Shown: in pieces, positions 37,402 through 48,921 of the stretch
Layout of the letters: each line of letters starts with the position of its first letter
Numbering within the stretch: the first letter of the stretch is position 1
Origin: Acidobacteriota bacterium
GTDB lineage: Bacteria; Acidobacteriota; Terriglobia; Versatilivoradales; Versatilivoraceae
Direction of reading: 5' to 3'
NCBI GenBank assembly: GCA_022821775.1
Contig: JAJECY010000308.1
Location: forward strand, 1 to 57,308
DNA length: 57,308 nucleotides
Translations under genes and position numbers: made by a program
Notes under the pieces: generated by a model
Database searches by the model: none
Told to the model about the DNA's origin: nothing
Seen by the model: the letters and a program-made list of their open reading frames with translations, nothing else

Positions 37402-38595
37402 ATGAAACCCCCCAAGCTGGCGGTCGGCCTCATGTCTGGGACCTCGCTGGACGGCGTGGATGCCGCCCTGGTGCGGATTGTTCGGTCCGAGCAGGACTGC
37501 TCGGTTCAACTGAAGCATTTCATTTCCACTCCCTATCCGGAAGAGGTCCGCCGGGCGCTCTTGAAGGTCGCTTCCGGCCAGCCGGGGCCGGCCGCCTTTA
37601 TCAGCCACCTGGGGGTCCTGCTGGGCCGCCTCTACGCCGAATCGGTCAAGGACGTGTGCCGGACCGGCGGGGTCCCCCTCGACCGGCTGGATCTGATCGG
37701 GTCCCACGGCCAGACCATATTTCACCAGTCCGATCCCGGCGACTTCTGCGGCCGGCCGGTCGCCTCCACCCTGCAGATCGGAGAGGCCGCCGTGCTGGCG
37801 GAGGAGACGGGAGTGACCACAGTTTCCGACTTTCGCCCCGCGGACATGGCGGCGGGGGGGACCGGAGCTCCGCTCATACCGCTGGTGGATTTTCTGCTGT
37901 TCCGGGATCCACAAAAGGGACGGGTGCTGCTGAACCTGGGGGGCATCGCCAACCTGACCCTGCTGCCGCCGGCCTGCGGAATCAATCAGATCCGGGCCTT
38001 CGACAGCGGACCCGGCAACATGGTGATGGACGCTCTGGTCCGGCGGCTGGAGTCGGATTCGAGAGGGTTCGACGCCGGGGGGCGCTTGGCCCTTTCGGGA
38101 AAGCCCATCCCGGCCCTGCTGGAATCTCTGCTGGCCGATCCCTACTTTCGCCGCGAGCCTCCCAAGTCGGCCGGACGGGAGCAGTTCGGCGGGGCCTTTG
38201 TGGAACGGATGCTGGCGGCGAGGCCGTCCTGCGGCACCGCGGACCTGGTCTGCACGGCAGCCGAGCTGACGGCCCGCACCGTCGGCGACGCCGTGCTGCG
38301 CTTCACCGAGACCTCCCACAAATGGGACCGGGTGCTGGTTTCAGGCGGGGGCGTCCACAACGCCTACCTGATGCGGCGCCTGCAAGAGCTCCTGCCCCGG
38401 TTGAAGGTAGCTCCAACCGACTCCCTGGGGATTCCCGCCGACGCCAAGGAGGCCATCGGATTCGCGGTCCTGGCCAATGAAACCATCGAGCTGTCCACCG
38501 GAAACGTACCCTCGGCTACCGGCGCCCGACATCCGGCAATACTGGGGAAGGTGACTTACGGCCGGAACTACGGTCGGCTGAGAGGGATCTCCTGA
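37402..38595 (+). CDS. anmK: Anhydro-N-acetylmuramic acid kinase
   Basis: A 397-residue ASKHA-fold kinase that converts 1,6-anhydro-MurNAc from cell-wall turnover to MurNAc 6-phosphate. It has VGLMSGTSLDGVDAALV at the N-terminus, GSHGQTIFHQ, TVVSDFRPAD-like sequence (TTVSDFRPADMAAGGTGAPL), NLGGIANLTLLP and the C-terminal LVSGGGVHNAYLMRRL. ATG 37402 fits the family start. It converges with panC, 30 bp away. Confidence 0.95.
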   Translation: MKPPKLAVGLMSGTSLDGVDAALVRIVRSEQDCSVQLKHFISTPYPEEVRRALLKVASGQPGPAAFISHLGVLLGRLYAESVKDVCRTGGVPLDRLDLIGSHGQTIFHQSDPGDFCGRPVASTLQIGEAAVLAEETGVTTVSDFRPADMAAGGTGAPLIPLVDFLLFRDPQKGRVLLNLGGIANLTLLPPACGINQIRAFDSGPGNMVMDALVRRLESDSRGFDAGGRLALSGKPIPALLESLLADPYFRREPPKSAGREQFGGAFVERMLAARPSCGTADLVCTAAELTARTVGDAVLRFTETSHKWDRVLVSGGGVHNAYLMRRLQELLPRLKVAPTDSLGIPADAKEAIGFAVLANETIELSTGNVPSATGARHPAILGKVTYGRNYGRLRGIS

Positions 38596-38625
38596 AGCGG
38601 CGCGGACGCAGTCAACGCCTGCAGG

Positions 38626-39471
38626 TCAGGGGGTGAGCCAGGTGTTGTCGATCAGGCGGGTGGTCCCGATAAAGGCGGCCAGGGCCAGCAACGATCTTCC
38701 TTCGAGCCGATCTACCGGCTCCAGGTCGACCGGGTCCACGATGGCGACATAGTCGACCCGGACCCGAGCCTCGGCGGCCAGGCAATGCTGAACGCCTTCC
38801 AGCAGGACCGGCGATCTGCGCTCTCCCCGGGCCACCTCCTGACTGGCCCATTCCAGGGACCGGAACAGGATCGGAGCAGCCTTCCTCTCTTCACGGCTCA
38901 GGTACCGGTTTCGGGAACTGACCGCCAGGCCGTTTTCCTCCCGGACCGTCGGACAGACCACCACCTCGATGTCCAGGTCCAGGTCCCGGACCATGCGTCG
39001 AATCAGGATGGATTGCTGGGCATCCTTCTGTCCGAAGAAGGCGGCCTCTGGGCGCACCAGGTGGAAGAGCTTTAGCACGACCGTGGCCACCCCCTGGAAG
39101 TGGGTGGGGCGGCTGAGGCCGCACAGCTTCCGGCCCAGACCTTGCACCAGCACCTCGGTGCGGTGGCCCTCCGGGTACATCTCGCCGGCCTCCGGTACCA
39201 GGACAGTCCCCACCCCCAGGCGCTCCAACTCCTTCAAGTCACGGTCGAGGGGCCGAGGGTAGCGCTCGAAGTCTTCTCCGGGAGCAAACTGGGTGGGATT
39301 GACGAAGATGGAGACCACCACCCGGTCGGACCGCTTGCGGGCCGCTTCGACCAGGCTGAGGTGGCCGGCGTGAAGGGCCCCCATGGTGGGCACCAGGCAG
39401 ACCTCCGGTCCGCCATTCGGCCAACTCCGGCGGAGGCGCCTGAAGGCCTCCAGCGATCGAACCACGTTCAT
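38626..39471 (-). CDS. panC: Pantothenate synthetase
   Basis: A 281-residue enzyme joining pantoate and beta-alanine with ATP. PTMGALHAGH holds the HxGH-type motif (residues 34-37). FVNPTQFAPGEDFERYPR, FGQKDAQQ and the KMSKS-like SSRNRYLS are conserved. It starts one base after the end of panB, so panB-panC form one transcription unit for vitamin B5/CoA synthesis. Confidence 0.96.
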   Translation of the reverse strand: MNVVRSLEAFRRLRRSWPNGGPEVCLVPTMGALHAGHLSLVEAARKRSDRVVVSIFVNPTQFAPGEDFERYPRPLDRDLKELERLGVGTVLVPEAGEMYPEGHRTEVLVQGLGRKLCGLSRPTHFQGVATVVLKLFHLVRPEAAFFGQKDAQQSILIRRMVRDLDLDIEVVVCPTVREENGLAVSSRNRYLSREERKAAPILFRSLEWASQEVARGERRSPVLLEGVQHCLAAEARVRVDYVAIVDPVDLEPVDRLEGRSLLALAAFIGTTRLIDNTWLTP

Positions 39472-39472
39472 G

Positions 39473-40333
39473 CTAACGCTTCAGCGCCTCTTCCAGCCGG
39501 GGGAATTCGGCCGGGTAGTAGGTCTCCTTGCGGGAGGGGAAGTCTCCCGAGAGGCAGTCGGTGATGTATCGGCGGGTGGCTTGGGAGAGGATCTCCCTGA
39601 GATCGACGTACTGCCTGACGAATTTGGGCTTGCGAGAGAACGACAGGCCAAAGAGGTCGTCGCAGACCAGGATCTGCCCGTCGCAGTGGGGCCCGGCCCC
39701 GATGCCGATGGTCGGAATTCTCAGTTCCTGGGTGACCTGAAAGGCCAGAGCTTCGGGCACGCCCTCCAGGACCACGGCGAAGGCGCCGGCGTCCTGCAAG
39801 GCCAGGGCATCCGCCATCACCGCCTCCGCCGACTCGGGGCTCTTGCCCTGCACCCGGTATCCTCCCATCACATGAAGTGACTGGGGGGTCAGCCCCACGT
39901 GCCCCATGACCGGAATTTCAGCCCGCACCAGTCTCCTGACCAGGCGGCTTCGCCTGGCGCCGCCTTCGATCTTTACGGCCTCGGCGCCCGCCTTGACGAA
40001 CTTCAAGGCGGCTTTGAGAGCTTCCTTGCTGCTCAGGTGATAGGAACCGTAGGGCAGATCGGCTACCAGCAGGGCTCGCTGCAGCCCCCGGCGAACGGCT
40101 TTGAGGTGACCCATGACATCCTTGACCGTCAGGGGCAGGGTCGAATCGTGACCCAGGCGGGTGGTGGCCAGAGAATCTCCCACCAGCACCAGATCGATGC
40201 CCGCCTGGTCCAGGATACGGGCAAAGGGGTAGTCATAAGCGGTCAGGCAGACGATCTTGCCGCCCTTGTGCTTGCGGTTAAGGATGTTGGGAACGGTGAC
40301 CTTGTCGGTCTGAAGGGGAGGGGTAGCGCTCAT
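39473..40333 (-). CDS. panB: 3-methyl-2-oxobutanoate hydroxymethyltransferase
   Basis: A 286-residue TIM-barrel enzyme making ketopantoate from alpha-ketoisovalerate and methylene-tetrahydrofolate. It has KIVCLTAYDYPFARILDQAGIDLVLVGDSLA, DLPYGSY, VKIEGG, GHVGLTPQS and IGIGAGPHCDGQILV. It lies upstream of panC. The gap to folK is 107 bp and shows no gene. Confidence 0.96.
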   Translation of the reverse strand: MSATPPLQTDKVTVPNILNRKHKGGKIVCLTAYDYPFARILDQAGIDLVLVGDSLATTRLGHDSTLPLTVKDVMGHLKAVRRGLQRALLVADLPYGSYHLSSKEALKAALKFVKAGAEAVKIEGGARRSRLVRRLVRAEIPVMGHVGLTPQSLHVMGGYRVQGKSPESAEAVMADALALQDAGAFAVVLEGVPEALAFQVTQELRIPTIGIGAGPHCDGQILVCDDLFGLSFSRKPKFVRQYVDLREILSQATRRYITDCLSGDFPSRKETYYPAEFPRLEEALKR

Positions 40334-40440
40334 TCGATACGCTCCTTGTCATCGGAATTGACTGCTTGGTTTGGGCCCGAGGGCCCGGTCGGCGTCCCGG
40401 TCAGGTCACTGATCCAGGCGCCGGCGATAGCCTAACAAAT

Positions 40441-40956
40441 TCACGTCAATCGGACAACTTGGGCCGGATCCCGGCAGCGCTCCAGCAAACCGGCCACCGA
40501 CAGGCCGAGGCGCGGATGTTTCCACCCGGCAGCGACTTCGGCCGCCGGCGTCAGGGCGAACCTTCTGAGGTGGAACCGGGGGTGGGGAATGGTCAGCTTC
40601 GGGTCGCTGACGATGCGCTCGTCGTAGAGCAGGATGTCGACGTCAAGGGTGCGGGGGCCCTTGGGCAGCCGGCGCTGCCGCCCCAGCGCTTCCTCCACCT
40701 CCAGGCAGCAGGCCAGCAGCGGATAGGGAGAAAGCCGGGTGCGGACCAGTAGGGCCTGGTTGAGAAACCAGGGCTGGCCGGGATAGTCCACCGGCTCGGT
40801 GAGATAGAGGGAAGAGGCCTGCAGGATCTCAAGCCCGCCGCCAGCCAGGCCCTCAACCGCGCGCTGCAGCTGGGAGCGGCGGTTGCCGACATTGGAGCCA
40901 AGACCCACAACAGCCTGCGAGGCCGCTTCCCGGGTCCCAGTGCTGCGATGCCGCAT
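40441..40956 (-). CDS. folK: HPPK, 2-amino-4-hydroxy-6-hydroxymethyldihydropteridine pyrophosphokinase
   Basis: A 171-residue folate-synthesis enzyme. It has VVGLGSNVGNRRSQLQRAV at the N-terminus, NQALLVRT, and the active-site region RLPKGPRTLDVDILLYDER followed by IPHPRFHLRRFALTP. ATG 40956 gives a short leader before the first strand; ATG 40983 would add nine residues. Its product pathway uses the same folate pool as panB. Confidence 0.93.
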   Translation of the reverse strand: MRHRSTGTREAASQAVVGLGSNVGNRRSQLQRAVEGLAGGGLEILQASSLYLTEPVDYPGQPWFLNQALLVRTRLSPYPLLACCLEVEEALGRQRRLPKGPRTLDVDILLYDERIVSDPKLTIPHPRFHLRRFALTPAAEVAAGWKHPRLGLSVAGLLERCRDPAQVVRLT

Positions 40957-41002
40957 TGTAGGATTCAATTTGCAGACTACCACTCTCGGCCGCGTGACCC
41001 TT

Positions 41003-41275
41003 TTACCGGTACACCTTGTCGCGACTACCGACCCTCACCACCAGGACACGCAATGCATCGTCTTGAATCTCGCAGATCACGCGGCAATCTCCTACCCGAT
41101 AACGCCACAAATCGCCCATTGGGCCGGTAAGAGCCTTGCCCAGGTTACGAGGGTTCTCCAGTTGCGCAACCCGCTCGTCCATGTAATCGACAATGCGTCG
41201 CGCCATCTGCTTGTCAAGCTTGCGCAGTTGGCTTCGGGCGGTTGCAGTGTACTCGATCGTCCAGGTTGAGGGCAT
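41003..41275 (-). CDS. RelE/ParE-family toxin
   Basis: A 90-residue RelE-superfamily toxin: WTIEYTATARSQLRKLDKQMARRIVDYM, then GDLWRYRVGDCRVICEI and LVVRVGSRDKVYR. The Arg and terminal Tyr-Arg expected for mRNA-cleaving RelE are present. Its start lies inside the 3' end of the antitoxin gene, with an unusually long 62-nt overlap in another frame. Confidence 0.87.
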   Translation of the reverse strand: MPSTWTIEYTATARSQLRKLDKQMARRIVDYMDERVAQLENPRNLGKALTGPMGDLWRYRVGDCRVICEIQDDALRVLVVRVGSRDKVYR

Positions 41276-41480
41276 TCCTCACCTCGGCGGAGGAGTATGT
41301 CTTCTCTGTGCCTCGACGAAGGCGCTCCAGTACGTCCGCGGCAAGGTAGTAATCCTCCATATCCTCAAGGCCACGCTCAATCATTTCACGCAGGTAGAAG
41401 GCCTTGGTGCGCCCGGTCTGCGAGGCCAGAAAATCGAGCCGTTGCTCGGTTTCAGGAGCAAGTCGAACCGAAGTCGCCAT
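41214..41480 (-). CDS. Ribbon-helix-helix antitoxin (RelB/DUF6290-like)
   Basis: An 88-residue protein: MATSVRLAPETEQRLDFLASQTGRTKAFYLREMI is the ribbon-helix-helix DNA-binding domain, and DYYLAADVLERLRRG with YSSAEVRNALNLDD is the toxin-neutralising tail. Homologues usually end near LDD; here about 13 further residues are read from sequence shared with the toxin start. It precedes the toxin in the operon. Confidence 0.85.
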   Translation of the reverse strand: MATSVRLAPETEQRLDFLASQTGRTKAFYLREMIERGLEDMEDYYLAADVLERLRRGTEKTYSSAEVRNALNLDDRVHCNRPKPTAQA

Positions 41481-41503
41481 GGCACTGGTCCTCCATTGTC
41501 CTC

Positions 41504-41519
41504 TGAATATATGTATTCA
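41504..41519. promoter_or_regulatory. Candidate operator of the RelE-type module
   Basis: TGAATA and TATTCA form an inverted repeat around a 4-bp centre (TATG on the plus strand), 24 bp upstream of the antitoxin start. This is the expected place for autoregulation. Confidence 0.45.
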
Positions 41520-41524
41520 TCGTA

Positions 41525-42544
41525 TCACAGCAGGCTGAGTTGGCCGGGGGTGGGGGTGAGACCGAAGTGTTCGTAGGCCAGCTTGGTGGCCATCCGCCCT
41601 CGCGGAGTGCGTTGCAGCAGGCCTCGCTGAATCAGATAGGGCTCGTAGATATCCTCGATGGCGTCCACTTCCTCGCTGATGGCAGCCGCCAGGGTGGCCA
41701 CCCCCACCGGTCCGCCGGAGAATTTCTCGATGATGGTCTTGATCAGCTTCTTGTCGTTCTCGTCGAAGCCGCTGTCGTCGATGGCCAGCAGGGCCAGGCT
41801 CCGGCGGGCCACCTCCCGGTCGATGGCCCCGTCGGCCTTCACCTGGGCGTAGTCGCGGACCCTGCGGAGCAGGCGGTTGGCCACCCGGGGCGTGCCGCGC
41901 GAGCGGGCGGCGATCTCCCTGGTTCCCGCCGCGTCGATCCGGATGCCCAGGATCTCGGCCGAGCGTCTCACGATCACCCCCAGCTCCTCCTCGGTGTAGT
42001 AGTCGAGCCGGTGGACGATGCCGAAGCGGGATCTCAGAGGTGAGGAGATCAACCCCGCCCGGGTGGTGGCGCCCACCAGGGTGAAGGGGGGGAGATTGAG
42101 CGCCACGCTTCTGGCGCTGGGTCCCTGGCCGATGATCAGATCCAGCTTGAAGTCCTCCAGGGCCGGATAGAGGATCTCTTCGATATGCGGCAAGAGGCGG
42201 TGAATCTCATCGATGAACAGCACATCGTTGGCCTGCAGGTTGGTGAGAATGGCGGTCAGATCTCCCTTGATCTGAATGATGGGACCGGTGGTGGTCTTCA
42301 GCCCCACTCCCAGCTCGTTGGCGATGACGCCGGCCAGTGTGGTCTTACCCAGGCCGGGCGGGCCATAGAGCAGCACGTGGTCCAGTGCCTCGCCCCGGGA
42401 GCGGGCGGCCGCCACCGAAATCTCCAGGTTCTGCTTGACCTGGGCCTGGCCGATATACTCCTGCAGAACCTTGGGGCGCAGGCTGAGCTCGAAGCTCTGC
42501 TCCTCCTCGAAGGGAGCTCCCGAAATGATTCGATCCTGGTCCAT
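41525..42544 (-). CDS. ruvB: Holliday junction branch migration ATPase RuvB
   Basis: A 339-residue AAA+ motor. Walker A GPPGLGKT is at residues 61-68 and Walker B with FIDEIHRL at about 110-117; [18 protein letters not shown] (sensor 1 and arginine finger region) and the C-terminal winged helix with [10 protein letters not shown]-like sequence ([12 protein letters not shown]) follow. ATG 42544 begins MDQDRIIS; the frame is open upstream into repeat sequence. It is separated from ruvA by 235 bp containing a decamer repeat. ruvC is not in the window. Confidence 0.97.
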
Positions 42545-42710
42545 AGAGAGATTGGGGAGGACGGGAAAGGGAGACTGGATTACTGGCCACAACGGTAACA
42601 CAAAGATCGAAAGGCATTCAACCGGCGGGGTGGCCGCGTAAGTGGATACAGATAACCTCTCGATTTCGGTTGTCACACCCCCTAATCAACAAATCATCGA
42701 TAACTTTATT

Positions 42711-42761
42711 GGTGTTCATTCGTGTCCATTCGTGGTTCGTCGTTTTCCTTTGTGGACAACT
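42711..42761. repeat. TTCGTGG-type decamer repeat between ruvA and ruvB
   Basis: Short related units (TTCATTCGTGT, CCATTCGTGG, CCTTTGTGGA) repeat with about 10-bp spacing, the same family as at 37.3, 52.6 and 57.1 kb. It breaks an otherwise usual ruvAB pair. Confidence 0.6.
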
Positions 42762-42779
42762 ATTGGGGGGTGGGCCGGC

Positions 42780-43388
42780 CTAACCTCGCTTCGGCCGGGA
42801 GAGCACCTTCAAGGCTGCCTTGATCAGCACCTCCACGCCCCCCTCTGCCGGAGCCTCCCGGGCGGCTTCCTGAAAAGCCCTCACCGCCATGGCTTTGGGG
42901 TACCCCAGGTTCACCAGGGCCGAGATCACGTCCTCCTGAAGCGAGGCGTGCCCGGTGACCTGAGGGCGGGGTTGATCCGCAACGGTCCGGGCCAGCTTGT
43001 CCCTGAGTTCCACCACCAGCCGCTCGGCTGTCTTCTTGCCCACTCCCGGGATCAGGCACAGCCGGGTCGAATTGCTCTGGCGGATGGCCGGGATCAGCTC
43101 CTCTACGCTCATCCCCGAAAGAATGGTCAGGGCCAGCCGGGGACCGACACCCGACACGGAGGTCAGGTGCTCAAAGGCCGACTTCTCCTGCAGGCTCTTG
43201 AAACCGAAAAGCTGGAGGGTGTCCTCGCGAACGTGGGTGTGGATGCGAAGCTGAACCGAGGAGCCGAGCTCGCCTATCTCGTAAAAGGTGGAGAGAGGGA
43301 CGTGGACCTCGTAGCCTACGCCGTTGACATCGATAACAAGCTGTTGGGGTTCCTTGGAATGGAGCGTGCCCGAGAGGTGAGCAATCAT
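42780..43388 (-). CDS. ruvA: Holliday junction DNA helicase RuvA
   Basis: A 202-residue protein. It has MIAHLSGTL with an OB fold, VNGVGYEVHVPLSTFYEIG, the helix-hairpin-helix segments SVSGVGPRLALTILSGM and LIPGVGKKTAERLVVELRDKL, and the C-terminal domain III (ISALVNLGYPKAMAVRAF) that binds RuvB. ATG 43388 is only 25 bp after the last BMC pentamer gene, so it may be co-transcribed with the microcompartment operon. Confidence 0.96.
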   Translation of the reverse strand: MIAHLSGTLHSKEPQQLVIDVNGVGYEVHVPLSTFYEIGELGSSVQLRIHTHVREDTLQLFGFKSLQEKSAFEHLTSVSGVGPRLALTILSGMSVEELIPAIRQSNSTRLCLIPGVGKKTAERLVVELRDKLARTVADQPRPQVTGHASLQEDVISALVNLGYPKAMAVRAFQEAAREAPAEGGVEVLIKAALKVLSRPKRG

Positions 43389-43413
43389 GGGCGGGGATCC
43401 GGCGGCCCTGAGG

Positions 43414-43686
43414 CTATTCCGACAGATGCACCTGATCGATGACACCGACCACGGCCATGTCGATCGGAGAGAAGGGCTTCCCGACCGAGGTCATGGCCGA
43501 CCAGCCCTCCTGGGCGACCAGCACGTCGTCTCCCACCCCGGCATCCACCGCATCCACCGCCAGGCAGGGCGAACCCTTCTCGCTGCCGTCCAGGTTGAGC
43601 ACCTGCACGTACAGAATCTTCTGTCCCTCATGGGAGGCGTGCTTGCGGGTGGCGACGACTTCGCCGATGACTTTGCCGATCAGCAT
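43414..43686 (-). CDS. BMC vertex protein (EutN/CcmL family), copy 1
   Basis: A 90-residue pentamer-forming shell protein that caps the corners of bacterial microcompartments. It starts MLIGKVIGEVVATRKHASHEGQKILYVQVLN and ends DMAVVGVIDQVHL, with CLAVDAVDAGVGDDVLVAQEG between, all as in EutN/CcmL. It is the most downstream of three paralogues; gaps between them are 25 and 13 bp. The three differ enough to occupy different positions or form mixed vertices. Confidence 0.94.
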   Translation of the reverse strand: MLIGKVIGEVVATRKHASHEGQKILYVQVLNLDGSEKGSPCLAVDAVDAGVGDDVLVAQEGWSAMTSVGKPFSPIDMAVVGVIDQVHLSE

Positions 43687-43711
43687 GGTGGCCGGACCGC
43701 CGCTTCAGGAA

Positions 43712-43981
43712 TCAATCGATGGTTACCGAGTCGACGATGCCGACGATGGCGCATTCGGTCGGCACGGCATGATGGGGATGCCAGGCCAGGGAGGCTTCAC
43801 GGCCGCGGCACCAGTAGATGGTCTCCCCTGCGCCCGCGCCGACCGCGTCCACTCCCACCAGGGTTCTGCCCCGGTCTCGTCCCTGCTTGTCCAGGGGCTG
43901 AATCAGGAGCAACGTCCTGCCCTCGAGCGCGTCGTCCTTGCGGGTGGCCACCACTTGTCCGACCACCCGACCCAGTCGCAT
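43712..43981 (-). CDS. BMC vertex protein (EutN/CcmL family), copy 2
   Basis: An 89-residue paralogue: MRLGRVVGQVVATRKDDALEGRTLLLIQPLD, LVGVDAVGAGAGETIYWCRGREA and CAIVGIVDSVTID. The middle carries a WCRGREASLAWHPHH stretch, with a Trp/Cys/His-rich loop absent from the other two. The family fold and length are otherwise normal. Confidence 0.94.
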   Translation of the reverse strand: MRLGRVVGQVVATRKDDALEGRTLLLIQPLDKQGRDRGRTLVGVDAVGAGAGETIYWCRGREASLAWHPHHAVPTECAIVGIVDSVTID

Positions 43982-43994
43982 TTCGGCGCCTCCC

Positions 43995-44264
43995 TCAGGG
44001 GCTCACCTCCACCGAGTCGACAATGCCGACGATGGCCGTGTCCACCGGACAATCCCTGCAGCCCCCGGCCATCCGGGCCGAACTCCCGGAAACCAACAGT
44101 ACTTTTTCCTTGAAGCCGGCGCTCACGGTATCCACGGCCACCACGTAACCGGCCTGATCCTTGCCGACGGGATCGACGGTCCGGACGACGAGCAGCTTCT
44201 TGCCCTCCAGACGCGGGTCCTTGCGAGTGGCGACAACCGTTCCGACAACCCGACCTAAAAGCAT
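43995..44264 (-). CDS. BMC vertex protein (EutN/CcmL family), copy 3
   Basis: An 89-residue paralogue: MLLGRVVGTVVATRKDPRLEGKKLLVVRTVD, VAVDTVSAGFKEKVLLVSGSSAR and TAIVGIVDSVEVS. A short insert (MAGGCRDCPVD) carries two cysteines close together. It lies 59 bp after the BMC hexamer gene. Confidence 0.94.
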   Translation of the reverse strand: MLLGRVVGTVVATRKDPRLEGKKLLVVRTVDPVGKDQAGYVVAVDTVSAGFKEKVLLVSGSSARMAGGCRDCPVDTAIVGIVDSVEVSP

Positions 44265-44323
44265 GGGGCACCCTCAGGGACTGGACCGCCGATCCCGGTC
44301 CAGCCCTCCTCAACCAGATCGGG

Positions 44324-44608
44324 CTACTCCCCCGCTTTGCCGATGGGGAGGACTTCCTCCAGGTTGGCATGGGGCCTGGGGATCACGTGAACGCTGACCA
44401 GTTCTCCGACCCGGCGAGCAGCAGCGGCCCCGGCGTCGGTGGCCGCCTTTACCGCGGCCACGTCCCCGCGCACGATGGAAGTCACGTACCCGGACCCGAT
44501 CTTCTCCCATCCCACCAGGGTCACCTTGGCTGCCTTGACCATGGCGTCCGACGCCTCGATCATGGCCACCAGCCCGCGCGTCTCGATCATTCCTAGAGCT
44601 TCACCCAT
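44324..44608 (-). CDS. BMC hexamer shell protein (BMC-H, PduA/EutM-like)
   Basis: A 94-residue BMC-domain protein, the facet tile of a microcompartment shell. It begins [26 protein letters not shown]; the pore segment KIGSGYVT corresponds to KIGSG in PduA and Eut[20 protein letters not shown] and [16 protein letters not shown] follow. ATG 44608 fits the family; an in-frame ATG at 44641 would add 11 polar residues. It is the only hexamer gene here, and no BMC-T gene is seen. The 175 bp between it and the aldolase show no gene. Confidence 0.95.
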
Positions 44609-44783
44609 CTTCCCGTCCTTTCCATGGTGATCTGTCGACAAGCCACTTGCTGCGAACGACCCGGTCCGAGTCCGCCACGCTCACCGGGAACCGTCCCCCG
44701 GCCGCTCCACGGAAACAAACCCAAACCCGCCTTTCTCCCCGGCGGCTGCAGGCACCATCAGTGCGCAGCCCGGCGAATGGGGG

Positions 44784-45560
44784 TTACCTCCCTTTTTGCA
44801 GAGACATCAATGCCGATTGGATGATATCGACCAGTTGACTTCGGGTCAACGTTATCCTTGGCTCGGACTCTTCCTCGCCCAGGGTGGGGCACCCCTCCCC
44901 CACCGGCGAGGGACCCTTGATCCCGTACTTTTCCCGGGCTACCAGGAGCTTGTCCACATCTTCTCCGCTGAGAAGCGTTTCCCGACCCAGAACCTTGGTG
45001 GCGAGGCTGATGCGGGCGAAATGCTCCACCGTCTCCATCTTGGCGTGAGCCAGGAACAGATCGCTGCCGTAGGTGACCACGCCGTGGTTGGCCAGCAGCA
45101 AGGCATCGTGGCGGGGGACGTAGTCCCGAATGGCATCCGTCAGCTCGGACGTCCCGGTAGTTCCGTAACGGGTGAGCGGGATGCAGCCCAGGACCAGAAC
45201 CACCTCGGCCAGGATGGCCTTGGTCAGGGGGACGCCGGCGGCGGCGTAACCGGTGGCGCAGGGGGGATGGGCGTGCACCACCGCCTGAACGTCGGAACGG
45301 AGCTGATAGATGAGCAGGTGCATGGCGATTTCCGAGGAGACCTTGCGCTTGCCCTCCACGGCCCGCCCTTCGGGATCGACGATGACCAGGTCCTCCTCGG
45401 CCATGAAGCCCTTGCTCATGGCGGTGGGGGTGGCCAGCACGTTGCCGTTTTCCAGCCGCAGGCTGATGTTGCCGTCAAAGGCCGCCACGTAGCCGAGTTG
45501 GTAGATGCGCCTGCCGATCTCGACAATATCCTTGCGGTGTTGCTCCAGAGTCTTTGTCAT
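44784..45560 (-). CDS. Class II aldolase (fuculose-phosphate aldolase type) with an encapsulation-like tail
   Basis: A 258-residue zinc aldolase. E77 (KVSSE), H96 and H98 (VHAHPP) and H159 (ANHGVV) match the metal and catalytic residues of FucA-type enzymes, which split L-fuculose 1-phosphate to dihydroxyacetone phosphate and lactaldehyde. E. coli FucA is about 215 residues. Here an extra tail has a Gly/Pro/Glu linker (215-234) and an amphipathic helix (236-255, with RSQLVDIIQSALMSL), the form of a microcompartment encapsulation peptide. Its start overlaps the rex stop. The physiological substrate is unproven. Confidence 0.9.
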   Translation of the reverse strand: MTKTLEQHRKDIVEIGRRIYQLGYVAAFDGNISLRLENGNVLATPTAMSKGFMAEEDLVIVDPEGRAVEGKRKVSSEIAMHLLIYQLRSDVQAVVHAHPPCATGYAAAGVPLTKAILAEVVLVLGCIPLTRYGTTGTSELTDAIRDYVPRHDALLLANHGVVTYGSDLFLAHAKMETVEHFARISLATKVLGRETLLSGEDVDKLLVAREKYGIKGPSPVGEGCPTLGEEESEPRITLTRSQLVDIIQSALMSLQKGR

Positions 45561-46210
45561 CAGGGGGAAGGACCGTCGAGGCCCGAGTCGGAAAGGAAGT
45601 AGGACAGGCTCTCGAAGGAGATGGCCAGATCCATGGTCTTCAACTGAACCCCGGGTCGGGTGCTCGGACGCAGCGGCGCAAAGTTGAGAATGGCGCTGAT
45701 TCCGGCCTCGGTCAACCGGTCGACCACCTCCTGGGCGTTTTCTGCCGGCACGGCCACCACCCCGATGACGATCCGCTCGCGGGCCACCACTTCATCGAGC
45801 TTGTCGATGTGGTGGACGACAACACCGCTGCGGGAGGTGACCCCCAGGCGGGACGCCTCCTTGTCGAACAGGGCCGCGACCTGAAAACACTCGTGCTCGA
45901 ACCCCCGGTAGTTGGCCAGGGCCATCCCCAGATTGCCGGCGCCCACAATGCCGATCCGGTGCTGCCGGTCCAGCCCAAGGATCTCGTTGAGATGAGCCCG
46001 CAGCTCGCCCACGTTGTAGCCGACGCCCCGCACTCCAAACTCGCCGAAATAGGTCAAATCCTTGCGGATCTGGGCCGAGTTCAGTTGGAACTGTTCGGCC
46101 AGGGCCTGGGAAGAAGTGGTGGTCACCCCGGATGCGGCCAGCAGATTCAGGCATCTGAGATAGATGGAGAGGCGGTTGATGGTGAATTCGGAGATTTTTT
46201 CTGTCTTCAT
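45560..46210 (-). CDS. rex: Redox-sensing transcriptional repressor Rex
   Basis: A 216-residue NADH/NAD+ sensor. The N-terminal winged helix (about residues 8-75) has the conserved NSAQIRKDLTYFGEFGVRGVGYNV recognition region. The Rossmann domain has GIVGAGNLGMALANY (residues 87-101), and the C-terminal swap helix follows. Rex represses fermentation and redox genes when NAD+ dominates and lets go on binding NADH. The stop overlaps the ATG of the aldolase (ATGA), making it the first gene of the BMC operon. I see no clear TTGTGA-type Rex box upstream. Confidence 0.95.
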   Translation of the reverse strand: MKTEKISEFTINRLSIYLRCLNLLAASGVTTTSSQALAEQFQLNSAQIRKDLTYFGEFGVRGVGYNVGELRAHLNEILGLDRQHRIGIVGAGNLGMALANYRGFEHECFQVAALFDKEASRLGVTSRSGVVVHHIDKLDEVVARERIVIGVVAVPAENAQEVVDRLTEAGISAILNFAPLRPSTRPGVQLKTMDLAISFESLSYFLSDSGLDGPSP

Positions 46211-46406
46211 GCGCCGGGTTGGCTATAGTACTCTCAAGCCGGGGCGGGCACCCTGTTGGGTCGGTCGAAAGTGTCGCTCAGTATACCATAGGGACAGTCG
46301 GCGTCCTCTATCGGCCGGGAGCGACCGGACCGAAAGGAGCCGGGAGTTCTGCGAGGCCGGAACTCGGGGACCGGACGGCCGGCGCCTGCCAAACGGATGC
46401 AGCCGC

Positions 46407-47363
46407 ATGAAAGACCATTTCATCAGCGACCTCGAACCCAACCAGAACATCACCGCCACCTTTCTGGTGAAGGACAAGGAGGTCCGCACCGCAAAGAACG
46501 GCAACTCCTACCTCTCCCTGACCCTGGGGGACAAGAGCGGAAGCCTGGACGCCAAGATGTGGGACAACGTGGCTGAGGTGGAGCCCACTTTCGGCAGGGA
46601 CGACTTCGTCAAGGTGAGAGGCCAGGTCCGGCTCTTCAACAACAGGCAGCAGCTCACCATTCACAGGATCCGGCGCTGCCGGGAATCGGAAGTCGACCTG
46701 GGGGACTATCTCCCCAAGACCACCAGGGACGTAGAGCAGATGTTCGGGGATCTGCAGGCCCTGGTGAGCCGGATCGGGAATCCCCACCTCAAGAGGCTTC
46801 TCGAAAACCTCTTGAACGACTCGGAGTTCGCCGCCAAGTTCAAACAGGCGCCCGCCGCCAAGACCCTCCATCACGCCTGGCTGGGCGGTCTGCTCGAACA
46901 CACCTTGTCCCTGAGCCGGCTCTGCCGAAGGATGGCCGAACACTATCCGGAACTCGACCCGGACCTTCTATTGACCGGAGCCGTCCTTCACGACATCGGC
47001 AAGACGGAAGAGCTGAGCTACAGCCGCAGCTTCGCCTACACCACCGAGGGCCAACTGCTCGGCCACATGATCCAGGAACTGGACCTCATCAATCGGAAGA
47101 TTGCCGAGATCGAGGATTTTCCTCCCAGGCTGAAGACCCTGGTCCAACACCTGATCATCTCCCACCACGGCGAATACGAGTTCGGCAGCCCCAAGCTCCC
47201 CATGTTCCCGGAGTCGCTGGTGCTCCACTACCTCGACAACCTGGACAGCAAGCTGGCCTCCATGCTGGATCTGATTGCCGGCGACACCGGCACCGACTCG
47301 GAGTGGACCGCCTATAATCGAATGTTCGAACGCCCCCTCTTCAAAGGCTCGAAAATAAAATGA
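46407..47363 (+). CDS. OB-fold/HD-domain 3'-5' exoribonuclease, YhaM family
   Basis: A 318-residue protein. The N-terminal OB-fold (about residues 12-90, KDKEVRTAKNGNSYLSLTLGDKSGSLDAKMW) binds nucleic acid. The HD domain has HHAWLGGLLEHTLSLSRL, VLHDIGK and ISHHGEYEFGSP for two metals. This order is that of YhaM, a 3'-5' exonuclease. ATG 46407 starts at the domain; the frame upstream is not protein-like. It is divergent from rex and overlaps the next gene by 4 bp. Confidence 0.9.
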   Translation: MKDHFISDLEPNQNITATFLVKDKEVRTAKNGNSYLSLTLGDKSGSLDAKMWDNVAEVEPTFGRDDFVKVRGQVRLFNNRQQLTIHRIRRCRESEVDLGDYLPKTTRDVEQMFGDLQALVSRIGNPHLKRLLENLLNDSEFAAKFKQAPAAKTLHHAWLGGLLEHTLSLSRLCRRMAEHYPELDPDLLLTGAVLHDIGKTEELSYSRSFAYTTEGQLLGHMIQELDLINRKIAEIEDFPPRLKTLVQHLIISHHGEYEFGSPKLPMFPESLVLHYLDNLDSKLASMLDLIAGDTGTDSEWTAYNRMFERPLFKGSKIK

Positions 47364-47821
47364 ACCGCCCAGACAAGACGACTAACGCCACCGCCGGCGC
47401 CGGGCGTCAGTCGGCCGATGACCGCTCACCGGCATCGGGGAGGCTCACCGCTGCCGAGTTGAAATGCATGAAGGCTCTCTGGTTCGAGGGAGCCAGAACC
47501 GTGCGCGACGTCCATCGGATCCTCCAGCCCGACCATCACCTGGCCTACACCACCGTCCTGACGGTCATGGACCGATTGACCCGGAAGGGCTTCCTGGCTC
47601 GAACCCGGCGGGGCAAAGCCCACTACCACCTCCCCCGATGCTCCTTCGAAGAGTCGCGCAGCCGGGCGGTTGCGGAATTGGTCGGGACCTGGTTCGACGG
47701 ATCGGCACACCAACTGGCGGCTTTTCTCACCGGTGGGCCGCCGAGGCAAGCCGTGCCCGGCCCTTCCCGACCGAACGACAAGGCCGAGTCGGGGCCTCAA
47801 TTGAACGAGCACCTGCTTTAG
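47360..47821 (+). CDS. BlaI/MecI-family transcriptional regulator
   Basis: A 153-residue winged-helix protein. Residues about 28-105 carry the family pattern LTAAELKCMKALW, ARTVRDVHRIL, LAYTTVLTVMDRLTRKGFLARTRRGKAHYH. The C-terminal 40 residues are Pro/Gly-rich and unlike BlaI's dimer domain. No BlaR-type sensor protease is adjacent, so its signal is unknown. It is coupled to the YhaM-like gene by an ATGA overlap. Confidence 0.85.
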   Translation: MNRPDKTTNATAGAGRQSADDRSPASGRLTAAELKCMKALWFEGARTVRDVHRILQPDHHLAYTTVLTVMDRLTRKGFLARTRRGKAHYHLPRCSFEESRSRAVAELVGTWFDGSAHQLAAFLTGGPPRQAVPGPSRPNDKAESGPQLNEHLL

Positions 47822-47862
47822 CCCGCCTGAAGCAAGGCCGCCCCAGTACCAGCCTGCCGAGG

Positions 47863-48921
47863 ATGCAACGCTCCGATTTCGAATACCCGCTGCCCAGCGA
47901 CAGGATTGCTCTCTACCCCTGCGAAACGCGTGACCAGTCTCGCCTGCTGCGGCTGGTTCGAGCCACCGGCCGGATCTCCCACCACCGATTCGCCGAGCTG
48001 CCCGAGTTGCTGACCTCCCGGGACCTGCTGGTTCTGAACAACACCAAGGTCTTCCCGGCCCGCCTGATCGGGAACCGGGCCGGCCTGACCAGCGACAAGC
48101 CACCCCCGGAAGGGGTCCTCAAAGCCCCCATCGAAGTGCTCCTGGTCAGGCCCGTGGGAACGGATACCTGGGAAGCGCTGGTCAAACCGGGTCGCAGGAT
48201 TCGGGTTGGCGAGCGCCTGCTGTTCGGTGGCGGCCAACTGAAGGCGGTGGTTGCGGGGCGGGGCGAACGGGGCTTGCGGGTGCTGCGCTTTGAATACGAG
48301 GGCGACTTCGACGACATGGTGGACCGGCTGGGCCACGTCCCTCTGCCCCCCTATATTCGCCGGCCCGACGAGTCCCACGACCGCGACCGCTACCAGACGG
48401 TGTACGCCCGCAAGCGAGGGGCCGTGGCGGCTCCGACGGCCGGGCTGCACTTTACCCCCCGGGTCTTCGCCGACTTGAGCCGCAAGGGAGTTTCCCGCTG
48501 CGAGGTGACGCTGCACGTGGGTCTGGGCACCTTCCGTCCGGTGGCCGGCGATCGCATCGAGGATCACCGCATGGAGACCGAGCCCTTTGAAATGACCCCC
48601 GAGGCCGCCCGGGCCATCTCGACAGCCGGTCCCGCCGGGCAGCGCGTCGTGGCCGTAGGCACCACCGTGACTCGTGTGCTGGAATCGGCCTTCCGGGGAG
48701 CGGAACCCCGGCTTCGCGGGGAAACCGACCTGTTCATCTATCCCGGCTACCGCTTTCGCAGGGTGGGAGCCCTGCTGACCAACTTCCACCTGCCTGGCTC
48801 CACCTTGCTGATGCTTGTGTGCGCCTTCGCCGGACGCGACCTGGTTTTCGAGGCCTACCGGGAAGCCCTGAAGACCGACTACCGCTTTTACAGCTACGGC
48901 GATTGCATGCTGATCGAGTGA
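47863..48921 (+). CDS. queA: tRNA preQ1(34) S-adenosylmethionine ribosyltransferase-isomerase
   Basis: A 352-residue enzyme that makes epoxyqueuosine in tRNA wobble positions. It has DFEYPLPSDRIALYPCETRDQSRLL, VLNNTKVFPARLIG, AAPTAGLHFTP, HVGLGTFRPV and TNFHLPGSTLLMLVCAFAG near the end. ATG 47863 has GAGG directly in front, closer than usual; the longer frame upstream overlaps the BlaI-like gene. tgt is not in the window. Confidence 0.95.
   Translation: MQRSDFEYPLPSDRIALYPCETRDQSRLLRLVRATGRISHHRFAELPELLTSRDLLVLNNTKVFPARLIGNRAGLTSDKPPPEGVLKAPIEVLLVRPVGTDTWEALVKPGRRIRVGERLLFGGGQLKAVVAGRGERGLRVLRFEYEGDFDDMVDRLGHVPLPPYIRRPDESHDRDRYQTVYARKRGAVAAPTAGLHFTPRVFADLSRKGVSRCEVTLHVGLGTFRPVAGDRIEDHRMETEPFEMTPEAARAISTAGPAGQRVVAVGTTVTRVLESAFRGAEPRLRGETDLFIYPGYRFRRVGALLTNFHLPGSTLLMLVCAFAGRDLVFEAYREALKTDYRFYSYGDCMLIE

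Follow-up and report, generated by a model that had tools for sequence, protein, structure and literature searches.

The window, that is, the whole stretch of 57,308 nucleotides of Acidobacteriota DNA analysed here, carries on its minus strand a run of genes in the order rex, aldolase, BMC-H, three BMC-P, ruvA, and ruvB. The following features were assigned, in window coordinates:

46407–47363, plus strand: OB-fold and HD protein (YhaM-like), divergent from rex; PF01336, PF01966
46211–46296, minus strand: rex leader with likely promoter block, from conservation in the genus; no Rex operator
45560–46210, minus strand: rex, redox-sensing transcriptional repressor, 216 amino acids; PF06971/PF02629, NCBIfam NF003995, PDB 5zz5
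45558–45562, minus strand: TGATG, overlap of rex stop and aldolase start, read directly
44784–45560, minus strand: class II aldolase, 258 amino acids; contains a linker and, at the C-terminus, an amphipathic tail (ITLTRSQLVDIIQSAL) that presumably acts as encapsulation peptide; PF00596
44324–44608, minus strand: BMC-H shell protein, 94 amino acids; PF00936, E 2.9e-30
43995–44264, minus strand: BMC-P shell vertex protein 1; PF03319, E 3.5e-27
43712–43981, minus strand: BMC-P shell vertex protein 2; PF03319, E 7.2e-25
43414–43686, minus strand: BMC-P shell vertex protein 3; PF03319, E 2.9e-23
42780–43388, minus strand: ruvA, 25 bases after the third BMC-P gene; TIGR00084, E 1.1e-61
41525–42544, minus strand: ruvB; NF000868, E 2.2e-151

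It is likely that ruvA belongs to the same run of genes as the third BMC-P gene. A gene for a ParE/RelE-type toxin lies at 41003–41275, between ruvB and folK.

Rex and the microcompartment genes

A preliminary description of this DNA had named the first gene rex and the second a BMC aldolase, and the domain searches listed above confirm both assignments and add the shell genes. The rex product matches PF06971 as well as CoA_binding (PF02629) in Pfam, scores above the cut-off of the NCBIfam Rex models (best NF003995, E 8.4e-75), and has 5zz5 as its best Rex chain in the PDB (E 3.3e-48). It displays the architecture of the family, an N-terminal winged helix and an NAD-binding Rossmann domain. 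Comparison with Rex proteins from the PDB revealed conserved RKDLxYFGEFGxRGVGY and GxGxxG motifs and, judged by sequence, the DNA-binding and Rossmann motifs are intact. The protein resembles the Rex family of redox repressors (PMC13077300) in domains, motifs, operator sequence within its genus, and respiratory targets among its relatives, but differs in gene context, being encoded by the first gene of a microcompartment operon. The aldolase (PF00596, E 3.8e-45) finds fuculose-phosphate aldolases as its PDB matches, retains the active-site elements HAH, E77, and NHG, and has a C-terminal tail that is kept across 18 relatives.

In the ACI type of microcompartment, an Acidobacteriota aldolase is combined with BMC-H and a BMC-P triplet, and an aldehyde dehydrogenase (AldDh) resides on a satellite locus (Sutter et al. 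2021, PMC8217296). By gene content, the window locus matches this type: it shares the Acidobacteriota host and the PF00596 aldolase with a C-terminal encapsulation peptide, and its genome shares BMC-H, the BMC-P triplet, and an AldDh on a satellite contig (C162), where a second BMC-H gene (197–424) is followed by an AldDh-like reading frame (492–2270). High-identity matches to this reading frame were found in 29 of 29 relatives tested, adjoining a BMC-H gene in most of them. At C162:185–2270, the AldDh-like gene carries an unusual C-terminal extension (IHVDGKSIITPAARDL) outside Pfam coverage. Despite this likeness, ACI loci possess a 2-hydroxyacid dehydrogenase whereas the window locus has none among its neighbours at 38626–47821 (one was found in L104), and the main text of the ACI paper contains no mention of Rex whereas the window ACI locus has rex. 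The PVM, PVM-like, and GRM5 types have the class II aldolase as signature enzyme in common with the window locus. However, PVM, GRM5, and most PVM-like loci employ DeoR-family regulators (Axen et al. 2014, PMC4207490), while Rex is the only regulator adjacent to the locus described here. Rex at an aldolase BMC locus is therefore unusual, which bears out the earlier remark that known aldolase BMC loci are usually tied to substrate-type regulators.

The rex–aldolase junction and its history

The rex stop codon TGA occupies 45562–45560 and the aldolase ATG 45560–45558. The preliminary description had the two genes share ATGA at 45557–45565; the junction does fall inside this interval, but the shared sequence is TGATG with a one-base overlap and not a four-base ATGA, a reading that stems from a second in-frame TGA at 45559–45557, which is not the stop terminating rex. 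The overlap makes co-transcription of rex and aldolase likely in the window, and no Shine-Dalgarno-like sequence precedes the aldolase gene there. The form of translational coupling that had been proposed is thus present, yet it is not conserved in the genus: the overlap occurs in two of seven genomes (the window and G400), while the other five show gaps of 32 bases (four genomes) or 157 bases (one). Beyond the genus, gaps measure 1 base (G025), 11 bases (two g212 genomes), 14–130 bases in ten genomes, and 194–1061 bases in the rest. Because the overlap is limited to two genomes of the genus and gaps vary elsewhere, coupling is best read as a recent local state and no conserved device. In four genomes of the genus (L167, L168, L169, and L171), a CCGGG-CGCA-CCCGG hairpin is located between rex stop and aldolase start at about 2152–2165; it is lost in the window and in G400.

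As the preliminary description had suggested, related genomes were searched for rex beside BMC genes. In 32 genomes, spread over five Acidobacteriota families (f1, f23, f72, f71, and f79, which are internal grouping labels and not taxon names), rex directly precedes the aldolase gene on the same strand. The arrangement holds for 10 of the 12 f1 genomes examined (including 7/7 in the window's genus), 16/16 in f23, where Rex-bearing genomes with a full-length Rex match and a retrieved locus were counted, 3/3 in f72, 1/1 in f71, and 2/2 in f79. Rex lies away from the aldolase gene in 18 genomes of 11 other families, and three f93 and two g211 genomes have no rex–aldolase adjacency within 1.5 kb. 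The linkage persists where neighbouring genes differ. In L017 (G086 C2), rex adjoins the ACI aldolase gene and all shell genes are located elsewhere in the genome. Separately, L088 (JAIMBE010000003.1) represents a complete Acidobacteriota-type ACI locus in a metagenome-assembled genome labelled Bacillota, a contig that is probably mislabelled or misbinned.

In the Rex tree, 23 linked Rex proteins are confined to one side of a branch with support 94/92, and a single change of linkage was observed versus 13.7 expected for shuffled labels, none of 500 shuffles being as clustered; the adjacency, shared by 32 genomes and clustered in this way, is far beyond chance. Since the aldolase tree, by comparison, needs nine changes, the simplest history would comprise a single old origin of the linkage within Acidobacteriota followed by many losses. 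When the 55 named aldolase-BMC loci with the greatest similarity to the window were compared, rex was present in just two, of which one belongs to the window's own genus; on this count, most ACI loci do without rex and the compartment does not need it. Among the papers searched, none was found to link Rex to Acidobacteria microcompartments, and the neighbourhood, real and conserved, is apparently previously unreported.

Rex operators at the operon and elsewhere

The consensus Rex operator (ROP) reads 5′-TTGTGAA-N4-TTCACAA-3′ (PMC13077300). Within 46211–46406 the best match reaches 8/14 (p = 0.86 in shuffles), half sites and spacers of 2–6 occur at chance level, and the consensus is absent across the window operon. 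The same scan finds an operator upstream of nqrA. The earlier claim that Rex is autoregulated in this operon was not borne out. Nor was the claim that redox state sets microcompartment expression via Rex, as neither the operon nor the satellite aldehyde dehydrogenase locus has an operator; among 30 satellite loci tested upstream of BMC-H/AldDh there is no operator excess, with one p of 0.04, as chance expects. The preliminary description had named two findings that would speak against its reading. One, the lack of Rex binding upstream, is what the operator scan predicts, whereas the other, a separate promoter between rex and aldolase, has no room in the window, where the genes overlap. Rex can, however, bind degenerate sites, and a missing consensus match therefore does not exclude binding.

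Six other genomes of the genus share 94% identity with the window over the 86 bases preceding rex, compared with 78% just upstream. Because this conserved block begins with an extended −10 element (TGGTATACT, 46288–46280, about 70 bases before rex), a promoter is likely to reside here. Folding of the rex leader RNA (z = −1.1) gave no support to a structured element, and an Rfam search of 38000–48000 gave no match. A conserved TTCxGAACTGAC in rex upstream regions was considered as a shared motif and rejected, being rex coding sequence. A sigma-70 scan yielded two matches versus 0.5 expected; one, TTGACC-17-TATCAT at 44849–44821, falls within the 3′ end of the aldolase coding sequence and is a conceivable promoter for BMC-H.

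The best Rex operator in the 4.4 Mb genome, TTGTGAGATTATTCACAA, matches 13 of 14 positions (one mismatch) and is located upstream of nqrA, a gene identified by Pfam (G000 C250:8532–8549, equivalent to L076:1501–1518). Its sequence does not vary among six genomes of the genus, although their flanking bases have diverged, and a second genus retains 12/14. The site lies about 280 bases ahead of the start assigned to nqrA, where two divergent genes have their upstream region in common, the second presumably encoding a cyclophilin; nqr is therefore a putative target. In further relatives with Rex, near-perfect operators are located at cydA, nadA, the gene for a multihaem cytochrome, and that for UDP-glucose dehydrogenase, whereas no operator was found in five Rex-less genomes scanned. 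Given operators at nqrA, cydA, nadA, and cytochrome genes and none in Rex-less genomes, Rex in Acidobacteriota looks like a standard regulator of respiration and NAD metabolism. The operator-like sequence upstream of UDP-glucose dehydrogenase is TTGTGAATTATTTAACAA in several f23 genomes (L230, L231, L234, and L235).

Of the 16 rex promoters in f23, six contain an operator (11–12/14) at 20–30 bases before rex, and in all six loci the aldolase gene is 432–1061 bases away from rex. Operator matches in f23 rex–aldolase gaps, and in aldolase upstream regions of Rex-less genomes, stay at chance level. The f23 rex does look autoregulated, and its promoter operators suggest that Rex can act at a rex–aldolase locus. 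Overall, operators occur in 6/22 rex promoters versus 1/71 control upstream regions (Fisher p = 0.0006, with related genomes counted as independent). They are present in none of 12 tight rex–aldolase loci versus 6 of 11 loose ones (p = 0.005, indicative only, the genomes being related). L036, L041, and L043 contain a different palindrome, of the form GTTTCAC-N2-GTGAAAC, in the region ahead of rex and close to where the divergent ruvA begins; its half sites are in reverse order to those of the Rex operator, and it is possibly the site of another regulator.

Proposed roles of Rex at the microcompartment operon

The most economical mechanism, which we consider probable if by no great measure, is that an ordinary NADH-sensing Rex is the first gene of the ACI aldolase/shell operon, with the operon setting the dose of Rex and Rex acting in trans. 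In the genus, rex and aldolase would most likely be transcribed together from the extended −10 promoter, and expression of the operon would then set the amount of Rex. The protein would act on respiratory and NAD genes, here via the operator upstream of nqrA, and would release DNA when NADH is high; both the dosage effect and repression of nqr are predictions.

Alternatively, rex and the ACI genes could be neighbours only because both belong to an ancient block of housekeeping genes (ruvAB, folK, panBC, yhaM), with no functional link between them. The distribution of ruvAB, which flanks ACI genes in many Acidobacteriota genomes whether rex is present or not (divergent in f23, downstream in Terriglobia-type loci), fits such passive association, as does the repeated loss of rex that left the aldolase locus intact, for example in ten f23 genomes that keep this locus unchanged without Rex. 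We nevertheless regard it as improbable, since the rex–aldolase order is kept away from ruvAB (L022, L044, and L049) and without nearby shell genes (L017), with the same strand and rex in first place in all 32 genomes. Unlikely, too, is the model of the preliminary description, taken here with a degenerate operator in the leader as the site at which Rex would repress the operon that encodes it, so that the NADH/NAD+ ratio directly sets BMC expression. The conserved leader of the genus and the excess of operators in rex promoters, those of f23 in particular, are in its favour; the scans at chance level and the satellite aldehyde dehydrogenase without an operator oppose it, and autoregulation of the operon would place operators at tight loci, whereas they occur only at loose ones. 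Rex as a dedicated redox regulator of the microcompartment, tying organelle synthesis to redox state via a non-consensus operator or via dosage, appears similarly unlikely. On the operator scans, repression of the microcompartment by Rex and autoregulation in the window are not supported, and control of the compartment by redox state stays hypothetical.

To our knowledge, ACI microcompartments have neither a known function nor a known regulator. A redox sensor ahead of the ACI aldolase gene in five families provides a first regulatory handle on these compartments, and the window's genus constitutes a clean test case, with the perfectly conserved Rex operator at nqrA as an internal positive control. 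If the dose of Rex follows BMC expression, use of the organelle would feed into the control of respiration, and not the reverse.
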